From contig CAIWHK010000018.1 in the NCBI GenBank assembly GCA_903912525.1, forward strand, positions 62,001 to 126,000: a stretch of DNA of 64,000 bases, written 5' to 3'. A model generated the notes under the pieces. That model was not told where the DNA came from. It ran no database searches and saw only the letters and a list, made by a program, of their open reading frames with translations. Position 1 is the first letter of the stretch. Each line of letters begins with the position of its first letter. The position numbers were made by a program, and so were the translations under genes. Shown here in pieces: positions 23,083 to 44,805 of this stretch. This DNA comes from an uncultured bacterium. GTDB lineage: Bacteria; Krumholzibacteriota; Krumholzibacteriia; LZORAL124-64-63.

Positions 23083-23784
23083 CTAGGGTCGCGTCAAGGC
23101 GTAGGTCAGGACGTTGACGGCCATCCGCGCCGCCGACTCGCGCACATCGGCCGGGTCCCCGTGGACACCGGGGTCCTCCAGCCCGTCGCCGATATCCGAA
23201 GACCAGCTGTAGAAGATCACCAGCCGACCGTTGCGCACGACGCCGAAGCCCTGGGCAGGATCGCCGTCATGCTCGTGGATCTTCGGCAGCCCCGGCAGGT
23301 CGTAGAAGCAATGATAGAGCGGATGATCGCCGCCCAGCGGCACCAGCTTCCCGTCCGGATACAACCGGGACACCGTCTCGCGGAACGAGGCGTCCAGCCC
23401 GTAGTTGTCATCCGCCCACAGGAAACCGCCCGCGTCCAGGTAGCGGCGCAGCGCCTCCAGTTCGGCCGTCGTCAGCGCGATGCGTCCGTGGCCCGACATG
23501 TAGAGCAACGGATGGCGGTGCAGGTCCTCGCTGTCGAGCGTCACGACCGCCTCGCGCGGTGCGACCGGGATGCCGGTGCGCTGGCTGAACAGCGCGAGCC
23601 AGTTCGGCAGGCTGGTCGGGTTGCAGTACCAGTCGCCACCACCGCCGTATTGCAGGCGCGCGACGCCGACCAGGCCCGACTCGCTTCCCGTCGCGGCGAA
23701 CACGCTCCCACTGCAGGCAGCCAATGACAGCAGCAGGACCACCACGCCAAGGGGGCCCGAGCAGCGTCGCACGATCGTTGTCAC
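23083..23784 (-). CDS. DUF4159 lipoprotein
   Basis: 233 residues from GTG 23784 (GGAGG just upstream; GTGA overlap with the kinase stop). A hydrophobic leader with lipobox LAAC (Cys about 24) indicates a lipoprotein. The body matches DUF4159: LQYGGGGDWYCNPTSL, then LYMSGHGRIALTTAELEALRRYLDAGGFLWADDNYG and LGGDHPLYHCFYDLPGLPK, a glutamine-amidotransferase-like fold without an obvious nucleophile. In other bacteria such proteins cluster with MoxR/VWA/BatA genes; here the partners are the NtrY-type kinase and the DUF4175 protein. Confidence 0.85.
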   Translation of the reverse strand: MTTIVRRCSGPLGVVVLLLSLAACSGSVFAATGSESGLVGVARLQYGGGGDWYCNPTSLPNWLALFSQRTGIPVAPREAVVTLDSEDLHRHPLLYMSGHGRIALTTAELEALRRYLDAGGFLWADDNYGLDASFRETVSRLYPDGKLVPLGGDHPLYHCFYDLPGLPKIHEHDGDPAQGFGVVRNGRLVIFYSWSSDIGDGLEDPGVHGDPADVRESAARMAVNVLTYALTRP

Positions 23785-29255: not shown

Positions 29256-30107
29256 ATGAAGGTCATCTTGCGCACGCTCCCCGCCGTCCTGACGGCCCTG
29301 ATCCTGTCCGCAGCTCCCTTGGGCGCGAACGGGCTTTCGGCGTCGGATGCGGATCCCCACGAAGGGCTCGCCTGCGCGCGGTGCCATCTCGGCGCCACGG
29401 CCCGGGCGATCGCCACCGCCGGTCCGAACGACCCGGATCCCCGTTCCCGCACCTGCCGGACCTGCCACCGCGACCTCGGCACCCGGGGTTCGGCGGCCTC
29501 GCGTCAGCTGGGATTCCACGACGACCCGAAGGCTGACTGCGCAGGGTGCCACACGTTCCACGAACTCGGCCGGCTGAAGACAGCGGTCGGGGATCTGAAG
29601 ATGTCGGCGCAGGGGCTTGGCGAAGGCGTCCCGGCCCATTGCGCGGGCTGCCACGAGCCCGGGGCCGACCTCGGGACGTTGTCGCCGGCCCATCGCGCCG
29701 CCGCGGCCCTCTACCATCGCGACGCCGCCCTGCTGGTGGGCATGTCGCCCAGCCAGGGCTGCCTCAACTGCCACGCCGACGATTCCGGATCCACGTGGCA
29801 GGGCGAGGCAGGCGGCCAGACGCTGAAGTTCAACCAGCACGCGACCCATCCCCTCGGGGTCCTGGCGGTGGCGGGCAGCGGTCGCGACGAGCGCAAGCTC
29901 CGTTCGCCGATCGACCCGCGCCTGCGTTTGTTCGACGAGAAAGTCGAGTGCCTGACCTGCCACTCGCTGACCGGTGGGCAGCCCGATCTCCTGGTCGCCT
30001 TCCCTTCGCAGCCCGAGCTCTGCCTCGGCTGCCACCAGCTCAAGAACTCGAATCCGAGTCCCGCCCAGGACACGCGCCTGATGGCCGTCATGGCCGATGT
30101 CCCTTAG
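29256..30107 (+). CDS. Secreted heptaheme c-type cytochrome
   Basis: 283 residues with a signal peptide (about 1-24, ending GAN-G) and seven CXXCH heme sites: CARCH, CRTCH, CAGCH, CAGCH, CLNCH, CLTCH and CLGCH. Extra histidines are scattered between them (for example CAGCHTFHELG and HATHPLG), consistent with bis-His ligation. It does not match a cytochrome family I can name. It is the first gene of the plus-strand electron-transfer locus and lies 204 bases before the beta-barrel gene, so it is a candidate periplasmic electron carrier feeding the conduit. The ribosome site is weak (GAGGA is about 20 bases upstream), so the start is provisional but gives a good signal peptide. Confidence 0.9.
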   Translation: MKVILRTLPAVLTALILSAAPLGANGLSASDADPHEGLACARCHLGATARAIATAGPNDPDPRSRTCRTCHRDLGTRGSAASRQLGFHDDPKADCAGCHTFHELGRLKTAVGDLKMSAQGLGEGVPAHCAGCHEPGADLGTLSPAHRAAAALYHRDAALLVGMSPSQGCLNCHADDSGSTWQGEAGGQTLKFNQHATHPLGVLAVAGSGRDERKLRSPIDPRLRLFDEKVECLTCHSLTGGQPDLLVAFPSQPELCLGCHQLKNSNPSPAQDTRLMAVMADVP

Positions 30108-30311
30108 TTCTCCGGGTATTTTCTAACCCCCCGTGATTCCTCAAGTTCATGATTGCTTATTTTCGTCCGATTTGTTATTTTTTTAACTCGTGACGTCCGA
30201 AATCCATAGGCGGACAAGGACTTACACGCGCCGCCGAAGGTCCGCAGGCCGGACGCTCCGACGCGCGGATCCCGCCGCCGGTACATCCCAGCCGAGGCTG
30301 CAGCCTTACCC

Positions 30312-32540
30312 ATGTCGCTCAGGATCACCCTGCCCCGGCCGTCGCGCCGCCGTACCGCCCCCGCCGTCCGCGCGGTGGTGACCGGCGCTGTCGTAGCCGG
30401 CGCTGTCGTGGCGGGCACTGTCGTGGCCCTGCTTCCCCTGCCGGCCGCCGCGCTGGACGGCCGCGTCGACCTGCGGACGCTGCACCAGGAAGGCGCCTCC
30501 GGCGGCGAAGGCTACAGCAGCGACAACCAGTGGCAGGCGTTCGGCGTCGACCAGTCCATCCGGCTTTCCACCCGGGCCTCCCTCCAGTTCCAGTACCTGG
30601 CGCGGCGCGAATTCCTGCGCGGCACGGCCGCCGGGACCTCGGTCGACAACCGGTTGATCGCGCTGTCCCCTTCGAGCAGCCTTTCGTGGCAGGCCAAGGG
30701 TTGGCGCTTCAACGCATTCGCCCGGGGCAACCGCTCGGACCAGGATTTCGCCGGCACCCCCGCGATGCGCGACGACAGCCTCGAATACGGGCTGTGGTCC
30801 AGCGGGCGCTTCGGTTTCTTCTCCGGCGACGCCAACTACCAGGACAACACCTCATGGCGGCGCGGCGAGGGTGAGGATCGCGAGAACCGCGACCGGATCG
30901 GCAGCGGGCGGGTGCGCCTGGACCTGACGAAGCACGACGATGTGCAATACAACGTCTCGATCGTCGAACAGAACGCCGTCACGAACAACCGGCTGACGGA
31001 GTACACCACGCAGCACCTGCAGTACCACGGCGACCGGCCCCTGGCCGGCTCCCGCGCGCGGGCCACGTGGACGGTCGGCCATCGCCGGTTCGAGCAGAGC
31101 GACGCGTTCACCGGCGACATCACCACACAATACGTGCAGCCGGCCTCCGGCGGATTCTGGCTGGACGATACGCCGTCCTTCCTCGACCCGCTCGAGACCC
31201 AGCCCGAATACGTGCCGGCGCTGTTCGACAACGATCGCCTCTCGCCGACGGTCATCAACATCGGCGACAACGCGCCGGTCGGGCGCGACTACGGGGGCGA
31301 CTACCGGAATATCCAACTCGACTTCGGCGAGCCGGTGGCCATGACGTCCGCGTTCCTGTACGTCGACCGGAAGCTCGGCAGCCTGCCCGCCATGTTCCAG
31401 TGGGACCTGTATTTCTGCGACGAGGCCGAAGGGCGCGACTGGGGCAGCGCCGTGCCGGCGGGAACCTGGAGCGCCCGCTACGTGGAACTCGAGTCCGGGC
31501 GGCAGGGCTGGGAGATCTCGTTCACGGGCGGCGTCACGCACCGTCGCCTGAAGCTCGTCGACCGCAAGCTCGGGCCCACGCTCGGTGACCTGTTCATCAC
31601 CGAATTCGAAGTCTACCGGCCGATCGGCGAGGGCCAGTCCAAACGCACCGCGCGCCAGGAACGCACCACCCTCGCGGGCGCACTCGAACTGAGCCCGTTC
31701 TCCAACCTGCAGCTGCGCGTCGACGGCGCGATCGACCGGCGCGACCAGGTCGGGAGCGGGCGCCTCGAGCGGGTCAACCAGAGCGCGCTGGCCAGTTGGC
31801 GCGTGAAGGGCTGGATGCTGTCGGGCCAGGTCCAGTCGAACTCCGAGGAAAGCCCGTCGCGACTGCGGACGGAATCCAATTCCCGGCAGGTGTCCCTGGC
31901 GCGACGCGCCCCGGGGCCGCTTTCGGGGCGCGTCTCCTGGATGCGCGCCAACGACAACACCTACAGCGTCCGGCAGGTCACCGAATCGGTGACGGCCGAC
32001 GCCACCTGGCAGCCCGCGCCGCTCCTGTCCTTCATCCAGAAGGTGTCGCGCGGCTGGCGCACCAGCGAATACGGCGCCGGTGATTCCGATTCGTGGGTCC
32101 TGGCCTCGGAGATGCGCAGCGTGCCGCGCCCGGGCCTGCGCCTCGATGTCCGGCGGACCGAGCGCTGGGTGAGCCAGGAGGCCGGCGCGGGCTTCACCTC
32201 GTTCGGCGAAGCCGAGATCGATGCCTCGTGGGAGATCAGGCCCCTGCTTTCGTGGTCGTGCCAGGCCACGAGCCAGCGGCGGGAACAGACCGATTGGATC
32301 CTGCGCAACACGCTGTCGTGGAGTCCGGTCCGCGGCGGCAGCATGCTGTTCTCCCTTCAGGCGAACGACTATCAGGACTCGCGCATGGACCAGCTCCGGC
32401 GCGGCGGGAGCGTCAGTCTCGACTGGCAGGCGCGCGCCCGGCTGTCGCTGGCCGGCAGCGTTGAGAAGAGCTACGAGCGGCTGGGTAGCCGTGAAAGCTG
32501 GCCCTTGGGCTTCCAGATGCGGGCATATTGGACATTTTGA
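30312..32540 (+). CDS. Outer-membrane beta-barrel with inserted discoidin-like domain (porin-cytochrome candidate)
   Basis: 742 residues. The signal peptide contains a short repeated AVVAG stretch and ends near AAALD. The body has alternating-residue beta strands with many aromatic and charged turns, and the last residue is Phe (MRAYWTF), the usual barrel-assembly signal. Between about residues 295 and 440 the pattern changes to a compact beta-sandwich (NIQLDFGEPVAMTSAFLYVD ... ISFTGGVTHRRLKLVDRKLG ... FITEFEVYRP) resembling F5/8-type-C/discoidin domains. In this position between cytochrome genes it is analogous to MtrB/PioB/OmbB-type porins that sheath cytochromes, though I see no direct family motif. 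A 204-base AT-rich spacer precedes it. Confidence 0.8.
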   Translation: MSLRITLPRPSRRRTAPAVRAVVTGAVVAGAVVAGTVVALLPLPAAALDGRVDLRTLHQEGASGGEGYSSDNQWQAFGVDQSIRLSTRASLQFQYLARREFLRGTAAGTSVDNRLIALSPSSSLSWQAKGWRFNAFARGNRSDQDFAGTPAMRDDSLEYGLWSSGRFGFFSGDANYQDNTSWRRGEGEDRENRDRIGSGRVRLDLTKHDDVQYNVSIVEQNAVTNNRLTEYTTQHLQYHGDRPLAGSRARATWTVGHRRFEQSDAFTGDITTQYVQPASGGFWLDDTPSFLDPLETQPEYVPALFDNDRLSPTVINIGDNAPVGRDYGGDYRNIQLDFGEPVAMTSAFLYVDRKLGSLPAMFQWDLYFCDEAEGRDWGSAVPAGTWSARYVELESGRQGWEISFTGGVTHRRLKLVDRKLGPTLGDLFITEFEVYRPIGEGQSKRTARQERTTLAGALELSPFSNLQLRVDGAIDRRDQVGSGRLERVNQSALASWRVKGWMLSGQVQSNSEESPSRLRTESNSRQVSLARRAPGPLSGRVSWMRANDNTYSVRQVTESVTADATWQPAPLLSFIQKVSRGWRTSEYGAGDSDSWVLASEMRSVPRPGLRLDVRRTERWVSQEAGAGFTSFGEAEIDASWEIRPLLSWSCQATSQRREQTDWILRNTLSWSPVRGGSMLFSLQANDYQDSRMDQLRRGGSVSLDWQARARLSLAGSVEKSYERLGSRESWPLGFQMRAYWTF

Positions 32541-32612
32541 CGGCGGTATCGCAGATTTTCCGGGCGACCGCTGCCGGCAGGCGATGCGGTCAGGCCGGCG
32601 AAAGGACAAACG

Positions 32613-33194
32613 ATGAGGAATTCGAGGCACGCGGCCCTGGGCACGACCCTCCTGTTGGTGGTCCTGTGCACGATGTGGGCCGGCTGCGGCCCCCGCGCCA
32701 GCCAGTACATCCGCGAAGACGTCGACTTCAGCTTCATCCGCCGCGTTGCGGTCTTCCCCTTCTATAACCTGACCCAGGACACCTTCGCTGCCCAGCGTGT
32801 GCAGTCGATCTTCGTGACCGAGATCCTGAAGACCGGCCAGGTCGAGGTGGCCGACCGCGGTGAGACCCTGTCGATCGTGGCCTCGATGAAGCTGCCGCCC
32901 GACCGCGTCATCAGCCCCGAGCAGGTCATGGAACTGGGCAAGCAGTTGCAGGTCGACGGCATCTTCTTCGCGACCGTCGAGGAATACGGCACCGAGCGCT
33001 CGGCGCGCGACCCGGCGCAGGTCGTCACGTGCGTCTACCAGCTCCACGAGACCCAGACCGGTCGCATGATCTGGTCATCCCAGACGCGCACGGATGGAAC
33101 CTCGCTCATGCGGAAGCTGTTCGGTGGCGGGACGGCCGGGATCTACCAAGTCGCCCGGGCCAACGTGCGCGCTGCGCTGGAGACCCTGTTCTGA
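32613..33194 (+). CDS. CsgG/LpoB-like outer-membrane lipoprotein
   Basis: 193 residues from ATG 32613 (AAAGGA 7 bases upstream). The leader ends in lipobox WAGC (Cys about 25). The mature part (FIRRVAVFPFYNLTQDTFAAQRVQSIFVTEIL ... VEVADRG ... GKQLQVDGIFFATVEEYG ... TGRMIWSSQTR) follows the TolB-N/CsgG/GNA1162-like alpha-beta plan of lipoproteins that assist envelope machines. Its stop overlaps the next start (TGATG), so the two proteins are co-translated. In an electron-transfer locus it may help assemble or export the cytochrome filament, by analogy to CsgG in curli secretion (inference). Confidence 0.78.
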   Translation: MRNSRHAALGTTLLLVVLCTMWAGCGPRASQYIREDVDFSFIRRVAVFPFYNLTQDTFAAQRVQSIFVTEILKTGQVEVADRGETLSIVASMKLPPDRVISPEQVMELGKQLQVDGIFFATVEEYGTERSARDPAQVVTCVYQLHETQTGRMIWSSQTRTDGTSLMRKLFGGGTAGIYQVARANVRAALETLF

Positions 33195-34249
33195 TGAAGA
33201 CCCGCGGCCACAGATGGCGGCTGTTGCCCGTAGCCGGGTTGTTCCTGGCGACGGGCCTTCGGGCCGAGCCTGTGACCGAGCCTGCCGGATTCTCGCCGGC
33301 TGTCGCCGTCGTCCTGCACATCGAGGGCGAGCCCGTGCCCGGCCTGGACATCGACGTCGCCGGGCTGCGGCGCACCACGCTTGACATGGCCACGGCCATG
33401 GTCGGCGCCTCGGGGGCGCCGCTGGCCGACCGCGCCGCGACCGAGGAACTGGTCCGCCGCCACCGCGTCCGCTCGGGTGCGGCGTTGCCCCCCGCCTTCC
33501 TGGCCGGCCTTCACGACTCGCTGGGCGCCGGTCGCCTCATGGCCGTGACTCTCCTGGTCGGGAACGGACGGATCACCGCCACGGCGCGCGCCATCGAGAC
33601 CGGCAGCGGGCGGCTGGCCTCCGTGGGGATCGCCGAGACCGTCGTCGTCGGGAAGGAGTGGCAGCACGCCCTGATGGCCTCGCTGCGCGACGCCATGCCC
33701 GCACTGCGCGACCCGCTGCCGCCCGGCACTACCTTGCTGGTCCTGCCCGCCACCGGCGTCGGCCTCGATGTGCTGGTGATCCGCCAGGCGACCGCCAGCC
33801 TGCTGGCCGCCGCGACCGCGGACACGAAGTGGGCCGTCGTCGACCCCGCGCTGGCGACGGGCGCCGCCCTGGCCTCGGGACAGGACCTGGCGCGACTGGC
33901 CCGCAGCGACCGCGCCCTGCTGGCCGAGAAATTCGGCGTGTCGTGGGCCGTCGAAGCGGAAGTCGTCTCGTTCGGCCGGGACAACGCCGCCGCCGCGCTG
34001 GCGATACCCGCCGAGCTCGACGAGATCGCGGGCGCCGCTGCTCCCGTGGGCGACCTGACGATGACGTTGCGTATCCTCGACCTGGGCACCGGGCGGATCC
34101 GCGCGGCGGAGACGGTCATGGTGCCGGGCTCGCCGCACACCGGATGGTTCGGCGTGACCCATGCCCCGACCCTGCTGGAACAGATGCGCAAAGGCGCCGG
34201 ACAACTTTGGCCCAACCTGCAACGCCTTCTGGAGGAGCCCACCTCATGA
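33194..34249 (+). CDS. Secreted protein with two CsgG/TolB-N-like halves, function unknown
   Basis: 351 residues from ATG 33194, one base inside the preceding stop. It has a signal peptide (about 1-23, ending LRA-E). Both halves show the same loose plan: a strand such as AVAVVLHIEG or LLVLPATGVGLDVL, helices, then GAGRLMAVTLLVGNGRITATARAIETGSGRL or GVSWAVEAEVVSFGRD with LTMTLRILDLGTGRIRAAETV. This resembles tandem TolB-N/CsgG-like domains and would make it a partner of the lipoprotein upstream. No lipobox is seen. It overlaps the downstream isomerase gene by 4 bases (ATGA). Confidence 0.6.
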   Translation: MKTRGHRWRLLPVAGLFLATGLRAEPVTEPAGFSPAVAVVLHIEGEPVPGLDIDVAGLRRTTLDMATAMVGASGAPLADRAATEELVRRHRVRSGAALPPAFLAGLHDSLGAGRLMAVTLLVGNGRITATARAIETGSGRLASVGIAETVVVGKEWQHALMASLRDAMPALRDPLPPGTTLLVLPATGVGLDVLVIRQATASLLAAATADTKWAVVDPALATGAALASGQDLARLARSDRALLAEKFGVSWAVEAEVVSFGRDNAAAALAIPAELDEIAGAAAPVGDLTMTLRILDLGTGRIRAAETVMVPGSPHTGWFGVTHAPTLLEQMRKGAGQLWPNLQRLLEEPTS

Positions 34250-35580
34250 ACCCGAGACCGATGCGCCTCGCCCTGCTGACCATCACGTTCGCGCTGGCCT
34301 TTGCCGCCCCGTGCCGGGCGGATGCCGACCGCGAGATCGCGCTGGCCCTGGTCGGGCCGGACACCGTGACCACGCTCGAGCTCCACATCGAGCTCGGCCT
34401 GATGCAGGTCCGCAACGCCGATAATATTGCGCTGAGCTTCGGGGAACCGAAGACGATCCTCAAGCGCCTGACCCAGAACCACCTGATCATCCAGGAAGGC
34501 TTCCGGATGGGCCTGGACCAGGAGTTCACGGTCCGGAACCAGTGCGAAGAAGTCGTGCGCCACGAGTGCATGAAGGCACTGCTCGACTCGGTGGCGCTGA
34601 ACATCCCCGCCGAGACGCCGGGCGTGCAGGACAAGCGCAAGGCCGCCGTCCAGTCGTACCTCGACGGGCTCTTCCGCCGCTACGGGGTCGTCGTGGACTC
34701 GACGGTGCTGCGTTCGCTGGACTACGGTTCGAAGGACGCGGCGATGCAGAAGCGCCTGCAGTCCAGCACCGAGGTCCTGGCCCGGATCGGCGGCGGGCGC
34801 AGCCTGACGATCGCCGATTTCTCGCGCGAACTGCGGTTCACGGAATTCCACGGCCTGGTCGGCAAAGCCGACGCGGCCGAGCGGCGCGACAACATCCTGC
34901 GCGACCACCTGGCCCAGGTCGCGGTCAACCGCCAGCTCAAGGCCCAGAAGATGGACCAGACGCCCCAGATGCTGATGCTGCGCGCCCGGTTCGAGCGCAG
35001 CACGATCCTCGAGGAAGCCCTGCGCGTGCTGCTCCAGTTCGACTTCTCGCCGACCGACCCGGAAATTTCGCACTACTACCGCGCCCACACGCTTGAAGTG
35101 ACAGCCCCGCCCCGCTTCAAGATGGCGAGCCTGAAGGCGCCGTCCGAAGAGGTCGCAAACCAGCTGCGCGACAAGATCATGGGCGGCGCCGCGGTGCGCT
35201 GGCTGGCCGAGAACGACAAGCGCGTCGTGAAGGGGCCGCCGCCGTTCCCCGACACGTGGCTGCGCCCCGAGGAAATGGGCATGAAGCCCGAGGATGCGAA
35301 ACAGAACTTCGTGCCCGCCCCGTACCAGGTGCCCGACGGCTGGGTCGTGGCCCAGATCACGGTCCTGGAACCGGGCCTGCCCCTGCCGCTCGAGCAGTGC
35401 CGCGAACAGGTCCTCGGAATGATGAAGCGTGATGCGATGCGCGACCACATGGTCGACATCATCGCGCGGCTCGAGAAGGAATCGCCGATCGTCATCCTGC
35501 CCGGCGCCGAGGAAGAAGTCGCGCGGGTCGTGGCCGACGTCGTGAAGGCCGCAGCCACCAACGGCGCGGCCTCCAAGTGA
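34246..35580 (+). CDS. SurA/PpiC-like periplasmic chaperone-isomerase of the cytochrome locus
   Basis: 444 residues with a signal peptide (about 1-26, ending CRA-D). The N-terminal helices (IALALVGPDTVTTLELHIELGL ... ILKRLTQNHLIIQEGFRMGL) follow SurA/PrsA-type chaperones, with an insertion-rich middle and a parvulin-like C-terminal part (SHYYRAHTLEVTAPPRFKMASLKAPSEEVANQLRDKIMGGAAVRWLA ... YQVPDGWVVAQITVLEPGLPLPLEQ, quoted here only in part). The parvulin signature is weak, so isomerase activity is uncertain while the chaperone plan is clear. Coupling (ATGA) to the lipoprotein genes and 20 bases to the 42-heme gene suggest a dedicated folding factor for these cytochromes. Confidence 0.72.
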   Translation: MNPRPMRLALLTITFALAFAAPCRADADREIALALVGPDTVTTLELHIELGLMQVRNADNIALSFGEPKTILKRLTQNHLIIQEGFRMGLDQEFTVRNQCEEVVRHECMKALLDSVALNIPAETPGVQDKRKAAVQSYLDGLFRRYGVVVDSTVLRSLDYGSKDAAMQKRLQSSTEVLARIGGGRSLTIADFSRELRFTEFHGLVGKADAAERRDNILRDHLAQVAVNRQLKAQKMDQTPQMLMLRARFERSTILEEALRVLLQFDFSPTDPEISHYYRAHTLEVTAPPRFKMASLKAPSEEVANQLRDKIMGGAAVRWLAENDKRVVKGPPPFPDTWLRPEEMGMKPEDAKQNFVPAPYQVPDGWVVAQITVLEPGLPLPLEQCREQVLGMMKRDAMRDHMVDIIARLEKESPIVILPGAEEEVARVVADVVKAAATNGAASK

Positions 35581-35600
35581 TCGAAGCAGGAGGCTTGAAC

Positions 35601-38600
35601 GTGGATCGCTTCATTGCTGTTCGCCCCGGAAGCGCTCGCGCCTTGAAGGCGGCCCTGGTCCTCGCGCTGGTGGCGTGCCTGCACGCCGTCCCCGCTGGCG
35701 CCGCCGGCTTCAAGACCAAGGGCTGCGTCGACTGCCACCAGGAAGCGCTCAAGAAGACGCCGGCGAAGAACGCGCACCAGCCGTTCGCGGCGCGCGATTG
35801 CGAGGGCTGCCACCGCCGGCACGGCGTCATCGGCAAGCTGGTGCTCAAGAACACGGGCAAGGACCTGTGCCTCGAGTGCCACAAGGACCTGGTCGGCGTG
35901 ACCAAGCGCGCCGTCGTGCACGACCCCCTGCGCAAGGGAGACTGCACGGGCTGCCACTCCCCCCACGGCTCGGGCCAGCCGAACCTGCTGCCGGCGGCCG
36001 GCGCAGCATCCTGTTACAAGTGCCACGACGCGAAGCCGTACCAGCGCAAGAACGTACACCAGCCCCTGGCCAAGGGCGGCTGCGCGGCCTGCCACGACCC
36101 GCACGGCTCGGAGAACGCCGGGCTGCTGAAGCTGCCGGGCGACCAGATGTGCCTGTCGTGCCACGCGGACGCGGGCAAGCTCGCCAAGTCCCACAAGGTG
36201 CAGGGCGCCGTCACCGGCTGCGTCTCGTGCCACGATCCCCACAGCGCGGACGGCGAGTACCTGCAGTACGCGGTGCTCCATGCCCCGATGGCCGACGGCG
36301 ACTGCGCCCAGTGCCATGACGTCTCGCCCGGCGCCGCGTCGGGCGCGCTGGTTGTTCCCGCAGCCGAGCTCTGCGTGCAGTGCCACGACGATCCGGCGAC
36401 CCGCACGGTCGCCCACCCGCCTGCGGCCGAGCACGAATGCCTGCAGTGCCACGCGCCGCACGGCAGCGCGCGCCCTGCGCTCCTGGTGGCCGGCGAGCGC
36501 AAGGTCTGCCTCGACTGCCACGACAAGCCGCCCTTCGAGCGGTCGGTGCAGCACGCGCCGGCGGCCGAGGGCGCCTGCACCACGTGCCATGACCCGCACG
36601 GCGGCGAGCGGCCCAAGCTGCTGAAGGACGAGACCAACACCATCTGCGCGAGTTGCCACGACGGCATCCTGCCGGCGGCGACGGCGACAGGCGTCGTGGT
36701 CCACGCCCCGCTGGCCAAGCAGGCCTGCTCGGTGTGCCACGAACCCCACAGCGCGAACCACAAGGCCCTGCTGCGCCGGGAAGCCGGGACCCTGTGCCTG
36801 GGCTGCCATACCAAGGTCCAGATGGAACTCGCAGCCGAGTACACGCACGACGTTGTCGCGCGCGGCGAGTGCCTGGCCTGCCACAAGCCCCACACTTCCG
36901 ACCAGCCGGGACTGCTGACGAAGGCCCCCGCTGCTTTGTGCGCCGGCTGCCACGCGGACCTGTCCAAGCAGCCGGAGGGCGGCACGTTGCATGCGCCGGC
37001 GGCCGACGGCGCCTGCCTGGACTGCCACCTGCCGCACGGCGGCGACGAACGGGCGCTGCTGCGCCAGGCCGTAGCCCCGACCTGCGCGGCCTGCCACGAG
37101 GTCGGCAAGCCCTCGGGTGCCGCCTGGCAGGGCCACAAGCCGGTCGCCGACGGCGCCTGCACGGCCTGCCACGACCCGCACCGCTCGACCCGCAAGGTCC
37201 TCCTGGTGGCCGACAAGGACAAGCTGTGCGGCCTGTGCCACGAGGACATCGCCGCTCCGAAGGGCGCCGCCTCGATCCACCCGCCCAGCCAGGGCGAGTG
37301 CCTGGAGTGCCACCTGCCGCATGGCGGCCAGGGCCCCGCGTTCCTGCGCGAGGCCGCGCCGGCGCTGTGCTTCCGCTGCCACGACGAGAAGGGCGCCGAC
37401 TTCGTCGAGAAGCACCGGGGCCGCGATGCGGCGAAGATGGACTGCCTGGGCTGCCACGAGCCGCACAACGCGACCATGCCCGGCCTGCTGGTCGCCAAGG
37501 CCCACCCACCGTTCGCCGACCGCGATTGCGCCAGCTGCCACCAGTCGCCCGAGCCGATCGTGAACCAGACCCCGGTCTGCGCGCAGTGCCATGACAGCCT
37601 GCCCGACGCTGCGGCGAAGGGCCAGACCGTCCACGCGCCGTTCGGGGAAGGCGACTGCAGCGCCTGCCACAACCCGCACGTGTCGCGTGGCGAGCACTTC
37701 CTGAAGAAGGCCACGACCGCTGCGGTCTGCGCGGCCTGCCACGACCCGGCGGACCTGACGCCGAAGCCGGAGCTGGCCCATACGCCGGTGCGTGAGGGCC
37801 GCTGCGAGGCCTGCCACAGCCCCCACGCGTCGGCGCAGCCGAAGCTGCTGCGGCTGCCGGCCGGCGAGCTGTGCACGAGCTGCCACAAGCCGATCGAGGA
37901 GCTCAAGAAGCTGCCGGTCGTGCACGCGCCGCTGAAGACGGGCGCCTGCACGCGCTGCCACGACCCGCACGGCGGGCCGGTGGCGATGAACCTGATCGCC
38001 GAGACGAAGGTCCTCTGCGTCAAGTGCCACGCGCCGGCGGCGCTGCCGGCCAAGCACAAGGGCTTCCCGGTCGCCGATGCCGACTGCGCGGGATGCCACA
38101 CGCCCCACGCGTCGAAGCGGGCGAATCTGCCGCACCCGAACATGCACCAGCCGTACGCGCAGGGTAACTGCGCGGCCTGCCATGTCGGCGCGACGAAGGC
38201 CACCAAGGCCGCGCAGCCCGCTCTGTGCTTCGGCTGCCACGCGGCAATGAAGGAGGACCTGAAGTCCGGGACGCTGCACGCCCCGCTGACCGGCGAAAAG
38301 GCCTGCACGGTCTGCCATTCGCCGCACACCGCACCGAACGAACCGCTGCTGCCGAGGCCGCAGGCGGCCGTGTGCGGCGCGTGTCACCAGGACAAGGTCG
38401 ACACCAACCGCAAGGCGGCGCACCGCCACCCGGAGACGGACGGGAAGTTGTGCACCATCTGCCATGACCCGCACCTGGCGGCCGAGAACGCCGCGGACGG
38501 CAGCAAGGCGCCTGAGGTGTGCCTGAACTGCCATACCTACCGCGACCACACGGACCACCCGATGGGCGAGAAGACCATCGACCCGCGCACGGGCCAGAAG

Positions 38601-38729
38601 ATGACCTGCGACAGCTGCCATGACCCGCACGGGACGCAGTTCGTGCGGTTCCTGCGCGAGGATCCCGAAGGCAAGCTCTGCGTCGGTTGCCACACCGACA
38701 AGCTGCGTCCGAAGCGGACTGGTTCGTAG
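35601..38729 (+). CDS. Giant 42-heme c-type cytochrome (doubled-CXXCH repeats)
   Basis: 1,042 residues from GTG 35601, chosen because AGGAGG lies 7 bases upstream; GTG 35577 (GTGA overlap) is an alternative adding 8 residues. After the signal peptide (ending AGA-A) I count 42 CXXCH motifs, the first CVDCH and the last CVGCH. Most follow a repeating doubled-CXXCH unit of about 45-50 residues: CxxCHDPHG, a short basic/Leu stretch, LCxxCH, then a VHAPLA-type segment leading to the next CxxCH. The extra His of DPHG and VHAP probably serve as distal ligands. There is no membrane anchor after the signal peptide. The repeats suggest growth by duplication. The last part (TYRDHTDHPMGEKTIDPRTG) breaks the pattern. 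It likely forms a long multiheme wire in the periplasm or outside the cell. Confidence 0.95.
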   Translation: MDRFIAVRPGSARALKAALVLALVACLHAVPAGAAGFKTKGCVDCHQEALKKTPAKNAHQPFAARDCEGCHRRHGVIGKLVLKNTGKDLCLECHKDLVGVTKRAVVHDPLRKGDCTGCHSPHGSGQPNLLPAAGAASCYKCHDAKPYQRKNVHQPLAKGGCAACHDPHGSENAGLLKLPGDQMCLSCHADAGKLAKSHKVQGAVTGCVSCHDPHSADGEYLQYAVLHAPMADGDCAQCHDVSPGAASGALVVPAAELCVQCHDDPATRTVAHPPAAEHECLQCHAPHGSARPALLVAGERKVCLDCHDKPPFERSVQHAPAAEGACTTCHDPHGGERPKLLKDETNTICASCHDGILPAATATGVVVHAPLAKQACSVCHEPHSANHKALLRREAGTLCLGCHTKVQMELAAEYTHDVVARGECLACHKPHTSDQPGLLTKAPAALCAGCHADLSKQPEGGTLHAPAADGACLDCHLPHGGDERALLRQAVAPTCAACHEVGKPSGAAWQGHKPVADGACTACHDPHRSTRKVLLVADKDKLCGLCHEDIAAPKGAASIHPPSQGECLECHLPHGGQGPAFLREAAPALCFRCHDEKGADFVEKHRGRDAAKMDCLGCHEPHNATMPGLLVAKAHPPFADRDCASCHQSPEPIVNQTPVCAQCHDSLPDAAAKGQTVHAPFGEGDCSACHNPHVSRGEHFLKKATTAAVCAACHDPADLTPKPELAHTPVREGRCEACHSPHASAQPKLLRLPAGELCTSCHKPIEELKKLPVVHAPLKTGACTRCHDPHGGPVAMNLIAETKVLCVKCHAPAALPAKHKGFPVADADCAGCHTPHASKRANLPHPNMHQPYAQGNCAACHVGATKATKAAQPALCFGCHAAMKEDLKSGTLHAPLTGEKACTVCHSPHTAPNEPLLPRPQAAVCGACHQDKVDTNRKAAHRHPETDGKLCTICHDPHLAAENAADGSKAPEVCLNCHTYRDHTDHPMGEKTIDPRTGQKMTCDSCHDPHGTQFVRFLREDPEGKLCVGCHTDKLRPKRTGS

Positions 38730-38786
38730 TCAAAACGCCCCTGCGGCAGGGCTCTGGAACCCTGCCGCATGGCTTTCCAACCCCCT

Positions 38787-38815
38787 GCGGCAGGCCGGCA
38801 AACACGGCCTGCCGC
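38787..38815 (+). terminator. Rho-independent terminator after the 42-heme gene
   Basis: A perfect 10-base stem (GCGGCAGGCC / GGCCTGCCGC) with a 9-base loop is followed by TTTCTCTTTCT. It closes the first transcript of the locus and separates it from the propeller/OmcS-like genes. Confidence 0.88.
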
Positions 38816-38839
38816 TTTCTCTTTCTGAATAACCCCGTT

Positions 38840-38868
38840 AAATGTAGGATATATCACAAGTTACATTT
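38840..38868. promoter_or_regulatory. Palindromic operator candidate upstream of the propeller/OmcS unit
   Basis: AAATGTA and TACATTT form 7-base arms around a 15-base spacer that contains GGATATATCA (38847-38856). The reverse complement of that decamer, TGATATATCC, occurs at 38949-38958 on top of the -10 region of the promoter. The paired sites are about 102 bases apart, close to ten helical turns, as for a looping repressor or activator. Confidence 0.45.
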
Positions 38869-38924
38869 TGAGACCGAAAGTCATATGCTCCACCCGAATC
38901 CACGTTTATTTTTTGGCGTATCGG

Positions 38925-38952
38925 TTGACATCGTCCGCGCGTGTGATATGAT
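38925..38952 (+). promoter_or_regulatory. Sigma70-type promoter for the propeller/OmcS-like genes
   Basis: TTGACA at 38925-38930 and TATGAT at 38947-38952, 16 bases apart, are an almost perfect sigma70 -35/-10 pair. They lie after the terminator of the 42-heme gene and about 66 bases before the propeller start, placing transcription start near 38959. Confidence 0.75.
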
Positions 38953-39017
38953 ATATCCGTGACAAGTGAGCCGGGATTACCGGCCGAGCCACGGGCCCCA
39001 TGACAAGAGCGTGACGA

Positions 39018-40004
39018 GTGAACCCCCTGCACCCGAAAAACCATCCCGCGAAGGCCGCCATGGGTGTTGCTGTGTTAACAGCAGTGCTCGGCGCAGCCTC
39101 GTTCGCGATGGCTTCGGGGACCACCGGGATGGTCACCATCCGTTACGAAGGCGCGCTCGCACTGTCCCAGAACCACGATGGGCGCGCCCGCCCGGCCGCC
39201 GTCACCTGCGATGCCTTTGCCGGCGAGATCTGCGTGACCGATGCCGCCTACAGCGCGCTGCACCTCTTCAACGCGGCCGGCGCCGAGACCTTCCGCACCG
39301 GGGGCTTTGCGAACGTCACCGCACCCAACGACGGCGCGGTCGATCATGAAGGCCGCCTGGTCGCCATCTCGCTGGTCGACGGGCAATCGTCGGCGATCGC
39401 CCGCCTCGACGTCTACGGCGAGCCCGACGGCTACCGCGTCGAGCGGCCCGCCACGGATTGGCGCCCGACCCACCTGCTCGTCACCCGCGACGGCCACTAT
39501 GTCACGGTCGACGGTACGTCCGGCCTGATGGCCAAGCACGATGCGGACACCGGCGCCGTGCTGTGGGCCAGGACCATCGGCGGCGGCGTGGGCGATGACG
39601 CCTCGCTGGACATGAACCTGGGCCGCCCCGCGCAGATGCCCGACGGAACATTCAGCGTGCCCGGCGGCAACCTGCACGTGATGCTCGTGGTCAGCGAAGA
39701 CGGCGAGCAGCTGGAGACCTTCGGCCGCGTGGGCTCGTCCCCCGGTCGCATGGTGTACCCGGTCGCCGCCGCCGCGGGCCCGGGCGGGACGCTGCTGGTG
39801 CTCGACCAGCTGCGCCACAAGATCATGGCCTTCGACGGCCAGCATGAGTTCCTGAGCGAATACGGTTCGATCGGCGACACGCCGGGCGCCTTCTATTACC
39901 CGGCATCGATGGCGACGGACGGCAACGGCCACCTCTACGTGGCGCAGTCCTTCCGCAGCCTGGTTCAGGTATTCAACGTCCAGGCTGACGGGACGGCTGA
40001 ATAG
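39018..40004 (+). CDS. Secreted NHL-repeat (six-bladed beta-propeller) protein
   Basis: 328 residues from GTG 39018, with a leader ending MAS-G; ATG 39060 (AAGG 5 bases upstream) is an alternative start that would leave a shorter leader without basic residues. The repeats are NHL/SMP-30-like: FAGEICVTDAAYSALHLFN, HLLVTRDGHYVTVDG, GGTLLVLDQLRHKIMAFDG and NGHLYVAQSFRSLVQVFN. No heme site is present. I recall an NHL-repeat gene next to omcS in Geobacter, and the same arrangement here suggests a role in filament assembly, attachment or export (inference). It is transcribed from the strong promoter just upstream. Confidence 0.85.
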   Translation: MNPLHPKNHPAKAAMGVAVLTAVLGAASFAMASGTTGMVTIRYEGALALSQNHDGRARPAAVTCDAFAGEICVTDAAYSALHLFNAAGAETFRTGGFANVTAPNDGAVDHEGRLVAISLVDGQSSAIARLDVYGEPDGYRVERPATDWRPTHLLVTRDGHYVTVDGTSGLMAKHDADTGAVLWARTIGGGVGDDASLDMNLGRPAQMPDGTFSVPGGNLHVMLVVSEDGEQLETFGRVGSSPGRMVYPVAAAAGPGGTLLVLDQLRHKIMAFDGQHEFLSEYGSIGDTPGAFYYPASMATDGNGHLYVAQSFRSLVQVFNVQADGTAE

Positions 40005-40008
40005 ATAT

Positions 40009-40026
40009 GCCCGGCCTCGGCCGGGC
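40009..40026 (+). terminator. Compact hairpin between the propeller and OmcS-like genes
   Basis: GCCCGGC / GCCGGGC with a 4-base loop lies 4 bases after the propeller stop, followed by TGGTTTGG. It may act as a partial terminator or an mRNA-stabilising end; the T-run is poor. Confidence 0.4.
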
Positions 40027-40185
40027 TGGTTTGGGGAGAGGTTCGTGGAAGGCATCGTTGCTAGGTGGATGGCTCGTTCAGCGTCGATCCTGCCTGGCCT
40101 TCCGGCAACGGATCGGCAAAGTGTCACTCGTAACGGGACCGCGCCGTCGTGCGGGACCAGCAAACTTGCTCCTGGAGGCTCACTC

Positions 40186-41274
40186 GTGAAGACTTTCATC
40201 AAGATCGCCCTGGTGCTGACGCTCGCCCTTTCGGCCAGCTCCGTGCTCGCGTTCCATGATGGTGGCGTCGCCTACTGCGCCGGCTGCCATACCATGCACA
40301 ACAGCCAGAACGGCGCTGTCGTCGACGCCCTGCATCCGGCCGGCAACGAGTTCCTGCTGAACACCGGCACCCCCTCCGACACCTGCCTGCGCTGCCATGC
40401 CAACTACGGCCAGTTCATGAACGGCCAGGGCTTCGGCGCCGGCGGCGACTTCTACTGGGTGACGCGCACGTTCACCTGGGGTTCGACGGGCATCAGCAAG
40501 GGCGACAGCCACGGCCACAACGTCGTCGCCCCCACCAAGGGCATCGCGGCGGACGTGACGCTGACCACGGCTCCTGGCGGCACCTTCTCCGGCGCCAACC
40601 TGGGCTGCACCAGCTGCCACGACCCCCACGGCAACGAGAACTTCCGCCTGCTGTACGGCAGCGACCTGGGCCCCTTCTACGCGGGTGGCCGTTATGACTT
40701 CGCGAAGCCGGCCCCGATCGCCAAGGGCAACAGCCGTCGCACCTACTCGGGCACGGGCATCGAGACCAACGGCGCGCACACCGTGTACATCAGCGGCATG
40801 AGCGACTGGTGCGCGAACTGCCACCAGAACTTCCACGATGACAACACGACCAACTTCGTGCACCCGACGCACGAGCTGGGTTCGTCGATCGCCGCCGCGT
40901 ACAACGCGTACGTGAGCTCCGACGACATGACCAGCGGCACGTCCGCCACGTCGTACATGGGCCTGGTCCCGTTCGAAGACGTGCAGGCTGACGTCGCGAC
41001 CGTGAACACGCTGACGAACACCGCCGGCCCCGACGGCGCCGACGAAGTCATGTGCCTGACCTGCCACCGCGCCCACGCCTCGCCGTTCGCGGATGCCGCG
41101 CGCTGGGACAACAGCGTCATGCTGATCTCGCAGTCGCACCCGCTGGCCACCGACACCGGTTTCATCCAGACCGACGTCGACCGGAAGTACTATGGCTACA
41201 CGTTCTCCGCGAACCAGCGTTCGCTGTGCAACAAGTGCCATGCCAAGGACTACAACGACCACAAGCTCTACTAG
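40186..41274 (+). CDS. omcS: OmcS-like hexaheme cytochrome (nanowire subunit)
   Basis: 362 residues from GTG 40186 (TGGAGG 7 bases upstream) with a clean signal peptide ending VLA-F. The mature protein starts FHDGGVAYCAGCHTMHNS, which I recognise as the N-terminus of Geobacter OmcS. Further matches along its length are GGDFYWVTRTFTW, GHNVVA, LTTAPGGTF, CTSCHDPHG, GMSDWCANCH, CLTCHRAHAS and LCNKCHAKD at the C-terminus. Six CXXCH sites are present, as in OmcS. In the OmcS filament, His16 of one subunit (the last His of CHTMH) ligates a heme of its neighbour; that His is conserved here. It therefore probably polymerises into an extracellular heme wire. The length is shorter than OmcS (about 432 residues), so loops are trimmed. 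Confidence 0.92.
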   Translation: MKTFIKIALVLTLALSASSVLAFHDGGVAYCAGCHTMHNSQNGAVVDALHPAGNEFLLNTGTPSDTCLRCHANYGQFMNGQGFGAGGDFYWVTRTFTWGSTGISKGDSHGHNVVAPTKGIAADVTLTTAPGGTFSGANLGCTSCHDPHGNENFRLLYGSDLGPFYAGGRYDFAKPAPIAKGNSRRTYSGTGIETNGAHTVYISGMSDWCANCHQNFHDDNTTNFVHPTHELGSSIAAAYNAYVSSDDMTSGTSATSYMGLVPFEDVQADVATVNTLTNTAGPDGADEVMCLTCHRAHASPFADAARWDNSVMLISQSHPLATDTGFIQTDVDRKYYGYTFSANQRSLCNKCHAKDYNDHKLY

Positions 41275-41306
41275 GAGCCGACTGGTCTGATTGTTGACCT
41301 TGTGGC

Positions 41307-41335
41307 GGGCCCCGCGGAGGAATTCCGCGGGGCCC
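41307..41335 (+). terminator. Strong hairpin after the OmcS-like gene
   Basis: A perfect 12-base GC-rich stem (GGGCCCCGCGGA / TCCGCGGGGCCC) with a 5-base loop, 33 bases past the stop. No U-run follows, so it may stall or protect the transcript rather than fully terminate it. Confidence 0.6.
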
Positions 41336-41422
41336 GTCCGCTTGACAGGGCTGGCCGGAATGCCTTCTATCGTGGTAGAATTGTGCGACAGGGCTGTACC
41401 GTATCCCCGTGAGGATCCATCG

Positions 41423-42571
41423 ATGACGCTGATCCGTCCGGAATCATCACCCCGCCCGGGCACCACCTGGATGCGACCCATCGTCATTGCCCTGGTCGGC
41501 GTGGGCAGCCTTTGCGCCGCGGAGCCGGTTACGGCCGCCCCCGTGCACGGGGGCGGCGTCGGCTCGTGCGGCCTGTGCCATATCATGCACGACGCCGCCG
41601 CCGGCGAAATCGCCCTCGACGGAACACGGCCGCTGCTGGTCGCCGCCTCGGCCACCGACCTGTGCCTGACCTGCCACGGGAACAACGGGGTCTTCGGACT
41701 GGCCCCGACCCTGCCGCCGGCCGAGCGCGGGGCCGGAAACTTCACCTGGCTGCTCGAGGACAACCTGAACGATGCCGCCGGCGGCGCCGCGGCCCCCATC
41801 CGGGGCCAGGCGGCCGGCCACAGCATCGCCTCCCCGGCCCGCGGCACCAATGCCGACACGCGCTGGGACCACGCCCCGGGCGGCACGTTCCCGTCCGCCC
41901 TGCTCGGCTGCACCAGCTGCCACGACCCGCATGGAACCGACAGCTTTCGCATGCTCAACGGGGCGGGCCCCGTCCAGAACGGCGCCACCACGTTCCTCTA
42001 TCCCGCACCGGTGGCCGAGGGCCTGGACATCACCAATGCCGGCGCGACGGAATCCCGGACCCAGCACACCGCCTACCGGTCCGGCATGACGCAGTGGTGC
42101 GCCAACTGCCACGGCTTCTACCACGACGAAGGCAGCGGCGCCGCGTTCGAGCATCCGGTCGACGGCAACCTCGACGGCGACGTCCGTGAACGCTACAACC
42201 GCTACGAGGGCGATGTGAGCCCGGGGACAGGTTCCAGCGCGATGGCGTACATCCCGCAGGTGCCCTTCGAGGGATCAACGACGTCCGTGACGGGCACGAA
42301 TGGGCCCACCTCGAGCGATCGCATCATGTGCCTGACCTGCCACCGCGTGCACGGTTCGTCCGCCCCCGCGTCCGGACGCTGGGATTTCCGGGTGTACCGA
42401 CTGGCCGATGACGGGGTCGTCTCCGGCTCGTATCCGCTGCCGAGTCCGTATCCCGGTGTTGGGCAGGGGCAGCTTTGCAAGAAGTGTCATGCCGTGAGCC
42501 ACGAAGAGGGGCGCGCATGCGTGAGCTGCCACGGGCGTACCGGGGCGTCACCCTTCCCGGCGATCCGTTAG
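41423..42571 (+). CDS. OmcS-family heptaheme cytochrome, paralogue of the preceding gene
   Basis: 382 residues from ATG 41423 (GAGGAT upstream). The signal peptide (about 1-36, ending VTA-A) is followed by VHGGGVGSCGLCHIMHD, equivalent to the OmcS N-terminus including the distal His, and by GGTFPSALLGCTSCHDPHG, MTQWCANCH, MCLTCHRVH and LCKKCH. The seven CXXCH sites are CGLCH, CLTCH, CTSCH, CANCH, CLTCH, CKKCH and an extra C-terminal CVSCH. Tandem OmcS-type genes recall the omcS-omcT pair. The stop codon touches the left end of an insertion sequence, so the original 3' end may have been altered; the extra heme lies only 14 residues before the stop. Confidence 0.9.
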   Translation: MTLIRPESSPRPGTTWMRPIVIALVGVGSLCAAEPVTAAPVHGGGVGSCGLCHIMHDAAAGEIALDGTRPLLVAASATDLCLTCHGNNGVFGLAPTLPPAERGAGNFTWLLEDNLNDAAGGAAAPIRGQAAGHSIASPARGTNADTRWDHAPGGTFPSALLGCTSCHDPHGTDSFRMLNGAGPVQNGATTFLYPAPVAEGLDITNAGATESRTQHTAYRSGMTQWCANCHGFYHDEGSGAAFEHPVDGNLDGDVRERYNRYEGDVSPGTGSSAMAYIPQVPFEGSTTSVTGTNGPTSSDRIMCLTCHRVHGSSAPASGRWDFRVYRLADDGVVSGSYPLPSPYPGVGQGQLCKKCHAVSHEEGRACVSCHGRTGASPFPAIR

Positions 42572-42635: not shown

Positions 42636-43751
42636 TTACGCCGCGTATCGCAGGTCATGCCGCCGCTGCCGCGGCAACGCCCGCGTGATGACATCCCGCC
42701 AGTAGTATTCCACCCAACGCTGCGGCAGGCTGGTCCGACTGACAAACAACCGCCGCTCCAGCAATTCATCGATGGTGACACGGTGATCGATTGATCCCCG
42801 CGCCTGACCGGGCGTCGGGCTCCGGGGTCGTTTCTCCCGCCGGCTCTTCATGTAGTTCCGCCACACCAGGAACACAGCCAGTCGCTCGGCGCTCGCCTGC
42901 CGACGTTTCGACCATGCGATCGTCTCCCGCTTGTGGTTCGCGCTGCTGTGCCGCAACACGAGATCTGCCAAGTTGACCGGGAACAGCAGGTTGTTGGCAT
43001 CGCGACGATCCTTGCTCGAAGTCACCAGGTGCATCACTTCGCATCTGAGTGCCTTGATTGCCTGCGGATAGGCCCGATGATCATCGCTCAACACGGTCAA
43101 TCGAGGCTGGGAGCCGGCAACCACCTCAAGGAGGTGCTTCACATCCTTGAACACGGCCTTGGGATCCGGTCGGCCAAGAGCCGCTTCCAGCCGCTCCCGC
43201 TTGCACTTCTGGTCCGTCGTCATCTTCCCAGATCGGCGGACCTCGCTGTCGGTGAAATAGACGATGAAGTCGGACTCGGGCTCGATGGCCAGGTGGTGGT
43301 GGAACGGCCAGTACTGGGAGTGCTCGAAGGTGACGAAGCCGTCGATGGCCACCCGCTGGGCCGGCTGGGCTGCCTGCATCGCGGCGGCGTGGTAAAGCAG
43401 GCAATGGCGGCCAAGGCGGGCGAGCTGGCGGTCGATGGTGGAAGGGGCCACACGGAGGTCCCTGGCGATCTGGCGATTGGCCATGCACCCGGTGGTTTTG
43501 GTCAGGAGCTGCGGCAGGACATCGGGCCGCTTGAGCCAGTATGAGGTGGCAAAGGTCTGGGTGCTGAAGGACCGATGGCAATGAAGACAGAGGAACCGCT
43601 GGATACGGTGCGGGGCCACCTGTCTACCGAAGGTGCCAATGCGCTTGAAGCGCCACTGTGCACCCAACTGCAAGTGATACTTACAGTTGGCATTGGGGCA
43701 ATGGGGCGGAACCAAGACTTCGCTGGAATTGTGCATGCCCGACCGGGGCAT
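42636..43751 (-). CDS. DDE-type transposase with N-terminal zinc ribbon
   Basis: About 371 residues from ATG 43751; no good ribosome site is visible and ATG 43736 is equally possible. The N-terminal zinc ribbon (CPNANC ... CLHCH) precedes a helix-turn-helix-like stretch (MANRQIARDLRVAPSTIDRQLARLGRH). The catalytic core shows candidate DDE residues in VAIDGFVTFE, VLSDDHRAYP and a Glu near HKRETIAWSKRRQASAE. The C-terminus is basic. It is carried between the inverted repeats of the insertion sequence. I cannot assign the IS family firmly (IS1595- and ISL3-like features both occur). The CXXCH in it is a zinc site, not heme. Confidence 0.78.
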   Translation of the reverse strand: MPRSGMHNSSEVLVPPHCPNANCKYHLQLGAQWRFKRIGTFGRQVAPHRIQRFLCLHCHRSFSTQTFATSYWLKRPDVLPQLLTKTTGCMANRQIARDLRVAPSTIDRQLARLGRHCLLYHAAAMQAAQPAQRVAIDGFVTFEHSQYWPFHHHLAIEPESDFIVYFTDSEVRRSGKMTTDQKCKRERLEAALGRPDPKAVFKDVKHLLEVVAGSQPRLTVLSDDHRAYPQAIKALRCEVMHLVTSSKDRRDANNLLFPVNLADLVLRHSSANHKRETIAWSKRRQASAERLAVFLVWRNYMKSRREKRPRSPTPGQARGSIDHRVTIDELLERRLFVSRTSLPQRWVEYYWRDVITRALPRQRRHDLRYAA

Positions 43752-43768
43752 GGACCAGGCCAGACACA

Positions 43769-43802
43769 ATTTCGATGGCACAACCATTTCGATGGCACAA
43801 CC
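43769..43802. repeat. 17-base tandem duplication at the right IS end
   Basis: Two identical adjacent 17-base units starting ATTTCGATGG (43769-43785 and 43786-43802). Each contains the outer part of the right terminal repeat, so the transposon end is duplicated. Confidence 0.85.
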
Positions 43803-43811
43803 AAGAAAGAA

Positions 43812-43837
43812 GGCCGCGCCATTTTCATGGCGCGGCC
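43812..43837 (-). terminator. Terminator downstream of secF
   Basis: A perfect 11-base stem (GGCCGCGCCAT / ATGGCGCGGCC) with a 4-base loop lies 30 bases past the secF stop. On the minus strand it is followed by TTCTTTCTT. Confidence 0.85.
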
Positions 43838-43866
43838 TTTGTCGAGTTACAGCGGCAACCGCCGGA

Positions 43867-44805
43867 TCACATCCCCGGCGCAGTACGCTTGTCGGCGATC
43901 TGCCGCTCATACCACCACACGAGCAGCGGGGCAGCGATGAACACCGAACTGTAGGTACCGACGATGACGCCGAAGCACAGCGTGAAGGCGAAATCCCGGA
44001 TGACCGGGCCGCCCATGACCCAAAGCATGGTCGAGACCGCGAACGTCGCGGTCGAGGTCAGGATCGTCCGGCTCAGCGTCTCGTTGATCGACCGATTGAC
44101 GACCTCACGGTAGCTTTCCTTGCGCCGCAATTTCATGTTCTCGCGGATACGGTCGAACACGACGATGGTGTCGTTGAGCGAGTATCCGATAATCGTCAGC
44201 AGCGCCGCGATGATCTGAAGACTGATCTCGATGTTGAGGACCGAGAACACGCCGAGCGTCAGGATCACGTCGTGGGTCAGCGCGAGAATCGCCGCCATGC
44301 CGTAACGGAACACGAAGCGAACCCAGATGTAGATGGAAATGAGCACCAGGCCGGCGATGATCGAGTTGAACGCCGCCGTCCGCAACTCCGCACCGATCTT
44401 GGGGCCCACCGTCTCGACCCGCCGCATCTCGACCTGCGAAGTGGGGAAGCCGGCCTTGAGGTCGTTGACCAGCTTCTGGGCCACTGAACCGGTGCTGCCG
44501 TTGGCGACGGACTGCGCGCCTTCCGCGAGGGGCAGGTTGATCATGAACTCGTCCGTGGCGCCGAATTCAGTCACCTGCACGCCGCCGTAACCGCGGTTCG
44601 CGACCTCCTGGCGGATCGCGTTGATCGCGGGCGCCGGTGTGACCTTCACCTGCACCATGGTGCCGCCGGTGAAATCGACGCTCTGCCGGAACCCGCCCTT
44701 GGCGAGGACAAGCAGCAGGCTGGCCACGCACAGGGTGCCGGAGATGATGAAGGCGATCTTCATGGCTCCGGTGAAGTTGTAGTTGGCGTTCTTGAAGAAT
44801 TCCAT
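43867..44805 (-). CDS. secF: SecF, protein translocase accessory subunit
   Basis: 312 residues with six membrane segments: one at about 15-37, then five between about 155 and 300. The first periplasmic domain has SVDFTGGTMVQVKV, and the core has SIIAGLVLISIYIWVRF, ALTHDVILTLGVFS, GYSLNDTIVVFDRIREN and SINETLSRTILTS, all SecF signatures. With SecD it uses the proton-motive force to complete export through SecYEG. It follows secD by 75 bases and ends in a strong terminator. Every cytochrome, barrel and chaperone in the window with a signal peptide depends on this pathway. Confidence 0.97.
   Translation of the reverse strand: MEFFKNANYNFTGAMKIAFIISGTLCVASLLLVLAKGGFRQSVDFTGGTMVQVKVTPAPAINAIRQEVANRGYGGVQVTEFGATDEFMINLPLAEGAQSVANGSTGSVAQKLVNDLKAGFPTSQVEMRRVETVGPKIGAELRTAAFNSIIAGLVLISIYIWVRFVFRYGMAAILALTHDVILTLGVFSVLNIEISLQIIAALLTIIGYSLNDTIVVFDRIRENMKLRRKESYREVVNRSINETLSRTILTSTATFAVSTMLWVMGGPVIRDFAFTLCFGVIVGTYSSVFIAAPLLVWWYERQIADKRTAPGM

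Follow-up and report, generated by a model that had tools for sequence, protein, structure and literature searches.

The osc (omcS-companion) cluster, devoted to nanowire assembly, has reportedly been studied in Geobacter sulfurreducens by Shen et al. (2025). According to published summaries, it comprises GSU2494-GSU2504 and has roles described for OscD to OscH (PMC13194489, PMC12977616), with OscE and OscF/OscG acting in the secretion of OmcS (PMC13194489); a 'nanowire secretion' gene block has also been delimited as GSU2500-GSU2493 and includes the 26-heme GSU2495 (PMC12977616). OmcS itself has 12 His ligands, one of which, on heme505, is donated by the neighbouring subunit (PMC6584659), and it is the only protein of its kind known to form wires, OmcT, OmcJ and GSU2501 not being so known (PMC12977616). 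In PelBC, an exporter of polysaccharide (9h80), a barrel of 16 strands carries a ring of twelve PelC subunits (PMC12141448).

Gene content and order of the locus

The window, that is, the whole 64-kb stretch of DNA analysed here, is part of contig C18 in a genome of 4.29 Mb, whose host is assigned to Candidatus Krumholzibacteriota by kinship. Nine ORFs, all on the plus strand, occupy positions 29256-42571 and carry 7, 0, 0, 0, 0, 42, 0, 6 and 7 CXXCH motifs, 62 in total. They are lettered A to I and encode a 7-heme cytochrome (A), a barrel (B), OscF, OscG and OscH (C, D and E), a 42-heme cytochrome (F), an NHL protein (G) and two OmcS-family cytochromes (H and I). Pfam matches were obtained for LpoB in C, Rotamase_2 in E, NHL in G and multiheme families in A, F, H and I. 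The DNA pattern for CXXCH has 66 matches in the 64-kb window against 3.1 expected and a shuffle maximum of 8, so that the motif count is far above chance; the nine same-strand genes and their 62 motifs stand as an earlier, sequence-only reading had described them, with corrected likely starts at 33194 for D, 34246 for E, about 40186 for H and about 41423 for I.

To judge by its genes, the locus is a rearranged variant of the described osc cluster. The letters OscD to OscJ were assigned by order, by size and from published summaries of the Geobacter cluster, and eight of the nine genes are osc members on this assignment: OscE, OscF, OscG, OscH, OscI and OscJ in one protein, the NHL propeller and the two OmcS-family cytochromes. 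Shared with Geobacter are the OmcS-family cytochromes, a propeller, an OscE-like barrel, OscF and OscG of lipoprotein type, OscH, the 26-heme OscI and OscJ. What sets the lineage apart is the fusion of OscI to OscJ (42 hemes), an OscH shortened by its first parvulin domain, a permuted order without a separate OscD, a split into what appear to be two units and an added 7-heme cytochrome; relative to Geobacter, the second OmcS-like protein of the window also has seven hemes.

The sequence-only reading had taken the combination to be undescribed outside Geobacter-type bacteria. This was mistaken, for the osc cluster has been published, and similar clusters occur in many phyla, so the arrangement is not new outside Geobacter. 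Searching genome contigs gave 78 loci, spread over many phyla, and iterative profiles started with the barrel, C, D, E and the NHL protein of the window reached 46 to 64 loci each. Elsewhere the order is strongly conserved and runs NHL - OmcS (one to three copies) - OscD - OscE - OscF - OscG - OscH - OscI (26 hemes) - OscJ (16 hemes) - OmcS-like; the osc-type components were linked to these conserved-order genes in Geobacteraceae, Nitrospirota, Zixibacteria and others, either by iterative profiles or by heme-register alignment. In the window the order is E-F-G-H-IJ-NHL-S-S2, permuted relative to other osc clusters, although the OscE barrel, OscF and OscG keep the osc order, as judged from iterative profile orthology and PelC-fold matches. 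A separate OscD propeller-like gene is absent from the cluster in the window, where the NHL protein is the sole propeller; OscD is also missing in some relatives of the split type (L050, L057).

The search for the same gene order in other genomes found it conserved in relatives. Among 80 genomes of the class, OmcS-family matches occur in 27, and OscE is present in 25 of these as against none of the remaining 53 (Fisher p about 1e-18, with genomes counted without correction for kinship); in the two OmcS-positive genomes without OscE the OmcS matches are weak. Conserved order and co-occurrence together bear out the earlier idea that OmcS-family nanowire subunits and their assembly factors travel as one heritable cluster. 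In several Krumholzibacteriia the split-type clusters adjoin secDF, as does the fused type here, suggesting that the cluster has long stayed at one site while being rearranged internally. In three Desulfobacterota-type loci (L048, L099, L100), OscH-OscI-OscJ and NHL-OmcS are divergently oriented, a hint that OscHIJ travels as a unit, and a contig titled Heimdallarchaeota (L105:1405-5343) carries OscH-OscI-OscJ-NHL-OmcS-like genes, which is odd for an archaeon and probably a binning error.

The first gene of the locus, A (29256..30107), encodes a 7-heme c-type cytochrome of 283 aa with a signal peptide. Its homologues adjoin the osc cluster in Krumholzibacteriia relatives, often on the opposite strand, and the protein is a lineage-specific neighbour of the cluster and no osc gene. 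Profile searches aimed at placing it as an osc component collapsed onto heme-rich proteins in general, and only its position in relatives was therefore used. Divergent from the cluster lies a 1546-aa sensor histidine kinase (HAMP, HisKA, HATPase; 23781-28421, minus strand), a homologue of which is also found near the 7-heme gene in L023, L086 and L095; it is a possible regulator. At the other end, between the cluster and secF, a transposase-like ORF with a zinc-ribbon (42636-43910, minus strand) has no Pfam match at 1e-5; L024 and L025 have it at the corresponding position (71-74% identity), and L023 lacks it. SecD (44881-46475, minus strand) is read in two frames, 45303-46475 and 44881-45654, owing to a frameshift or an assembly error. 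Rfam gave no riboswitch, the only match being a sub-threshold Leu_leader in the secF region.

Export and electron-carrier genes

From C through F each gene shares one to four bases with the next, and 32613-38729 is therefore probably coupled in translation. Downstream of F lies a terminator-like hairpin (38787..38815) with an 11-pair stem and a T-rich tail, kept in two of three congeners, and then a candidate promoter (38904..38952) consisting of the block GTTTATTTTTTgGCG followed by TTGACA-N16-TATGAT (38925-38952). The promoter scan is by itself non-significant (one found, 1.0 expected) and the argument is conservation: the boxes and the upstream AT block, which is unique in the genome, are conserved in four congeneric genomes. 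Hairpin and conserved promoter together suggest two transcription units, one for export and electron carriers and one for the propeller and the OmcS-family proteins.

Gene B (30312..32540) encodes an OscE-type outer-membrane beta-barrel of 742 aa. The AlphaFold model has about 28 long strands at a mean pLDDT of 84, in keeping with the barrel called from sequence, and an iterative profile ties the protein to the gene preceding OscF in Geobacter, Nitrospirota and others. An insert at about residues 272-437 reads like a discoidin-like domain from its sequence and strand pattern, without a family match. By our own estimate from standard barrel geometry, a 28-strand barrel would have an inner width of roughly 4 nm, and the OmcS filament is close to this width.

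The next two genes had been read as a CsgG/LpoB-like lipoprotein pair. For OscF (gene C, 32613..33194; 193 aa, PelC/GNA1162/LpoB-like) this holds, given the lipobox AGC, the Pfam LpoB match and the orthologues, and the family profile matches PelC 5t11 (4.4e-9) and 9h80 (9.8e-8). OscG (gene D, 33194..34249; 351 aa), which overlaps gene C by one base, also shows PelC/CsgG-type likeness, its family profile matching PelC 9h80 (4.3e-13) and GNA1162, and the AlphaFold model resolving two tandem PelC/CsgG-N-like domains with structural matches to GNA1162, PelC, LpoB and CsgG; the OscG of the window has no lipobox. Both family profiles also match LpoB. The locus thus shares with PelBC (9h80) the PelC/GNA1162/LpoB fold next to a barrel gene and differs from it in that the PelB barrel has 16 strands, whereas OscE has about 28 and an inserted domain. 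Fold, gene neighbourhood and published genetics together suggest an exporter in which the OscE barrel would sit above a PelC-like ring of OscF and OscG.

OscH (gene E, 34246..35580; 444 aa) shares 4 bases with each of its neighbours, D and F. Its description as a SurA/PpiC-like chaperone is supported by profile matches of the family to SurA (6.6e-21) and PrsA, and the SurA-like core is orthologous in the window protein. By alignment there is a gap of about 125 aa, as also in L043, that corresponds to the first parvulin domain, a domain with matches to SurA and PrsA in the family profile, and OscH is equally short in L027, L028 and L029 (444-450 aa). The Rotamase_2 match is weak, and with the first parvulin domain lost the label of isomerase is doubtful.

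The 42 motifs of gene F (35577..38729; 1050 aa) are real. The protein had been presented as a single cytochrome; it is better described, on heme-register alignment, as a natural fusion of two known osc proteins, the 26-heme OscI and the 16-heme OscJ. Hemes 1-26 (35577..37541) and 27-42 (37578..38729) align one for one with the separate, neighbouring OscI and OscJ of Geobacter, Zixibacteria, Myxococcota and other Krumholzibacteriia; only a few motifs fall outside the register. Where OscI and OscJ are separate and both complete, their motif counts are almost without exception 26 and 16. Fusion proteins, with 41-42 hemes, are found in the window's genus and in some genera related to it within the family (L023-L029, L037, L038, L043). 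The fusion suggests that OscI and OscJ function together in the periplasm as a single wire of 42 hemes. We further propose, tentatively, that OscI and OscJ lie end to end as a wire of fixed length that plugs into the base of an exported OmcS-type filament. If true, the osc cluster would be exporter and electrical socket of the nanowire at once, a constraint on length would explain why 26 and 16 hemes hardly vary from phylum to phylum, and the fusion would be a hard-wired pair.

The genome contains further multiheme genes: some are NrfHA-like, other ORFs encode 8 to 20 hemes, and its contigs C36, C49 and C67 (L123, L124, L132) carry large ORFs with 19-20 CXXCH.

OmcS-family cytochromes and the reading of the locus

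The second unit begins with the NHL beta-propeller (gene G, 39018..40004; 328 aa), which has orthologues in more than 60 loci. This protein adjoins OmcS in most osc clusters, and its profile overlaps that of the separate OscD. Gene H (40186..41274) encodes an OmcS-family hexaheme cytochrome and likely nanowire subunit, and gene I (41423..42571) a second member of the family with an extra, seventh heme at the C-terminus. The likeness to OmcS noted from sequence is confirmed by matches to PDB 6ef8 (E 2.8e-55 for H, 1e-23 for I). With the OmcS nanowire (6ef8, 6nef) H shares six CXXCH, 44% identity in an alignment with OmcS and its relatives, and all 13 conserved His; the signal peptide ends SVLA|FHDGG, giving a mature N-terminus that agrees with OmcS. 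Both H and I keep all six motif His and seven other His that are invariant in the alignment set, including the His after the first heme motif, a candidate intersubunit ligand. In H this His is encoded at 40297..40299, and we take it to correspond to OmcS His16, the intersubunit ligand of heme 5.

In a tree of 87 OmcS-family proteins, made by a quick method, H groups with proteins of the window's family and its close relatives, and I joins a different clade, shared with Krumholzibacteriia, Zixibacteria and Calditrichota; neither lies within the Geobacter/Nitrospirota group to which OmcS (6ef8) belongs. This placement gives no support to one-to-one orthology of H with OmcS. Another OmcS-like hexaheme gene of the same genome (L035:5747-6925, contig C9) lies away from the osc genes, near apparent cbb3 oxidase and FixI-type genes. 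A scan of a viral collection with the OmcS-like H gave no match.

How the locus is read depends on the barrel and on these cytochromes. It had been proposed that the barrel and the cytochromes form a porin-cytochrome conduit. In an MtrCAB-like conduit the barrel would sheathe the 7-heme or 42-heme cytochrome and lead electrons across the outer membrane, with the OmcS-like proteins as outer partners. MtrB has 26 strands, near the about 28 of OscE; the barrel adjoins multiheme cytochromes, as do the large barrels of MtrCAB and OmbB-OmaB-OmcB, and MtrB (6r2q_B) is among the top Foldseek matches listed for it by TMq (0.33). This likeness is generic, however, with TM at most about 0.37 among the matches listed, and is common to TonB receptors and ushers. 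The whole genome has no match to PF11854 (MtrB/PioB), a search of unproven sensitivity in that the control genomes gave no positive over the cut-off, and the cluster has no clear MtrC-like outer cytochrome. A, H and I each match an Mtrc-MtrF domain below the cut-off, and the 42-heme protein has a heme-repeat match above it. The barrel has no Pfam match, carries an insert and is accompanied by PelC-like proteins and by a chaperone like SurA. Homologues of OscE, OscF and OscG are reported as secretion factors (PMC13194489), and relatives often have the 7-heme gene on the opposite strand. The lack of a PF11854 match, the generic barrel likeness and the strict association with secretion-type partners lead us to disfavour the conduit, which we regard as very improbable; the barrel belongs to the OscE family.

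A second possibility accepts the export function and supposes that the OmcS-family cytochromes act as periplasmic or surface monomers, forming no filaments. Filament formation is indeed not assured, since H and I lie outside the OmcS clade and wires are known for OmcS only, OmcT, OmcJ and GSU2501 not being known as wire formers (PMC12977616); the extra C-terminal heme of I might moreover disturb stacking. Against this stand the invariance of all candidate axial His, the intersubunit one included, the OmcS-like mature N-terminus of H and the co-occurrence of the assembly genes with OmcS-family genes, and we consider monomers unlikely. We read the locus, with considerable confidence, as an osc cluster for the assembly, export and charging of nanowires.

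A model for nanowire assembly and its implications

In the model that we favour, the OmcS-family subunits (H, perhaps also I) would reach the periplasm by Sec and be loaded with heme by the cytochrome c maturation system of the genome, in which Cytochrome-assembly (PF01578) matches are present. OscH would hold the subunits in the periplasm, from where they would pass the PelC-like OscF/OscG ring and then the OscE barrel, polymerising outside as each donates a His to a heme of the next subunit. The NHL propeller may shape or anchor the filament. The fused OscIJ would serve as a periplasmic heme chain that passes electrons towards the filament base; from knowledge of the family, periplasmic electron transfer via OscIJ is likely, and the 7-heme cytochrome may be an additional, lineage-specific carrier. 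We infer the formation of filaments in the Krumholzibacteriota host from the genes, and likewise the ring-plus-barrel architecture and the role of OscIJ. As the first parvulin domain of OscH, the lipobox of OscG and a separate OscD are all missing, the machinery may work differently here than in Geobacter.

The literature has yet to settle how nanowires are held in the envelope and by what route electrons reach them (PMC12307469). The match to PelC gives a concrete architecture for the nanowire exporter, and the OscIJ fusion, together with the near-constant heme counts, points to a single wire at its base; being one protein, OscIJ is suited to expression and measurement. The distribution of the cluster would extend the capacity for nanowires to Krumholzibacteriota and to other uncultured phyla.
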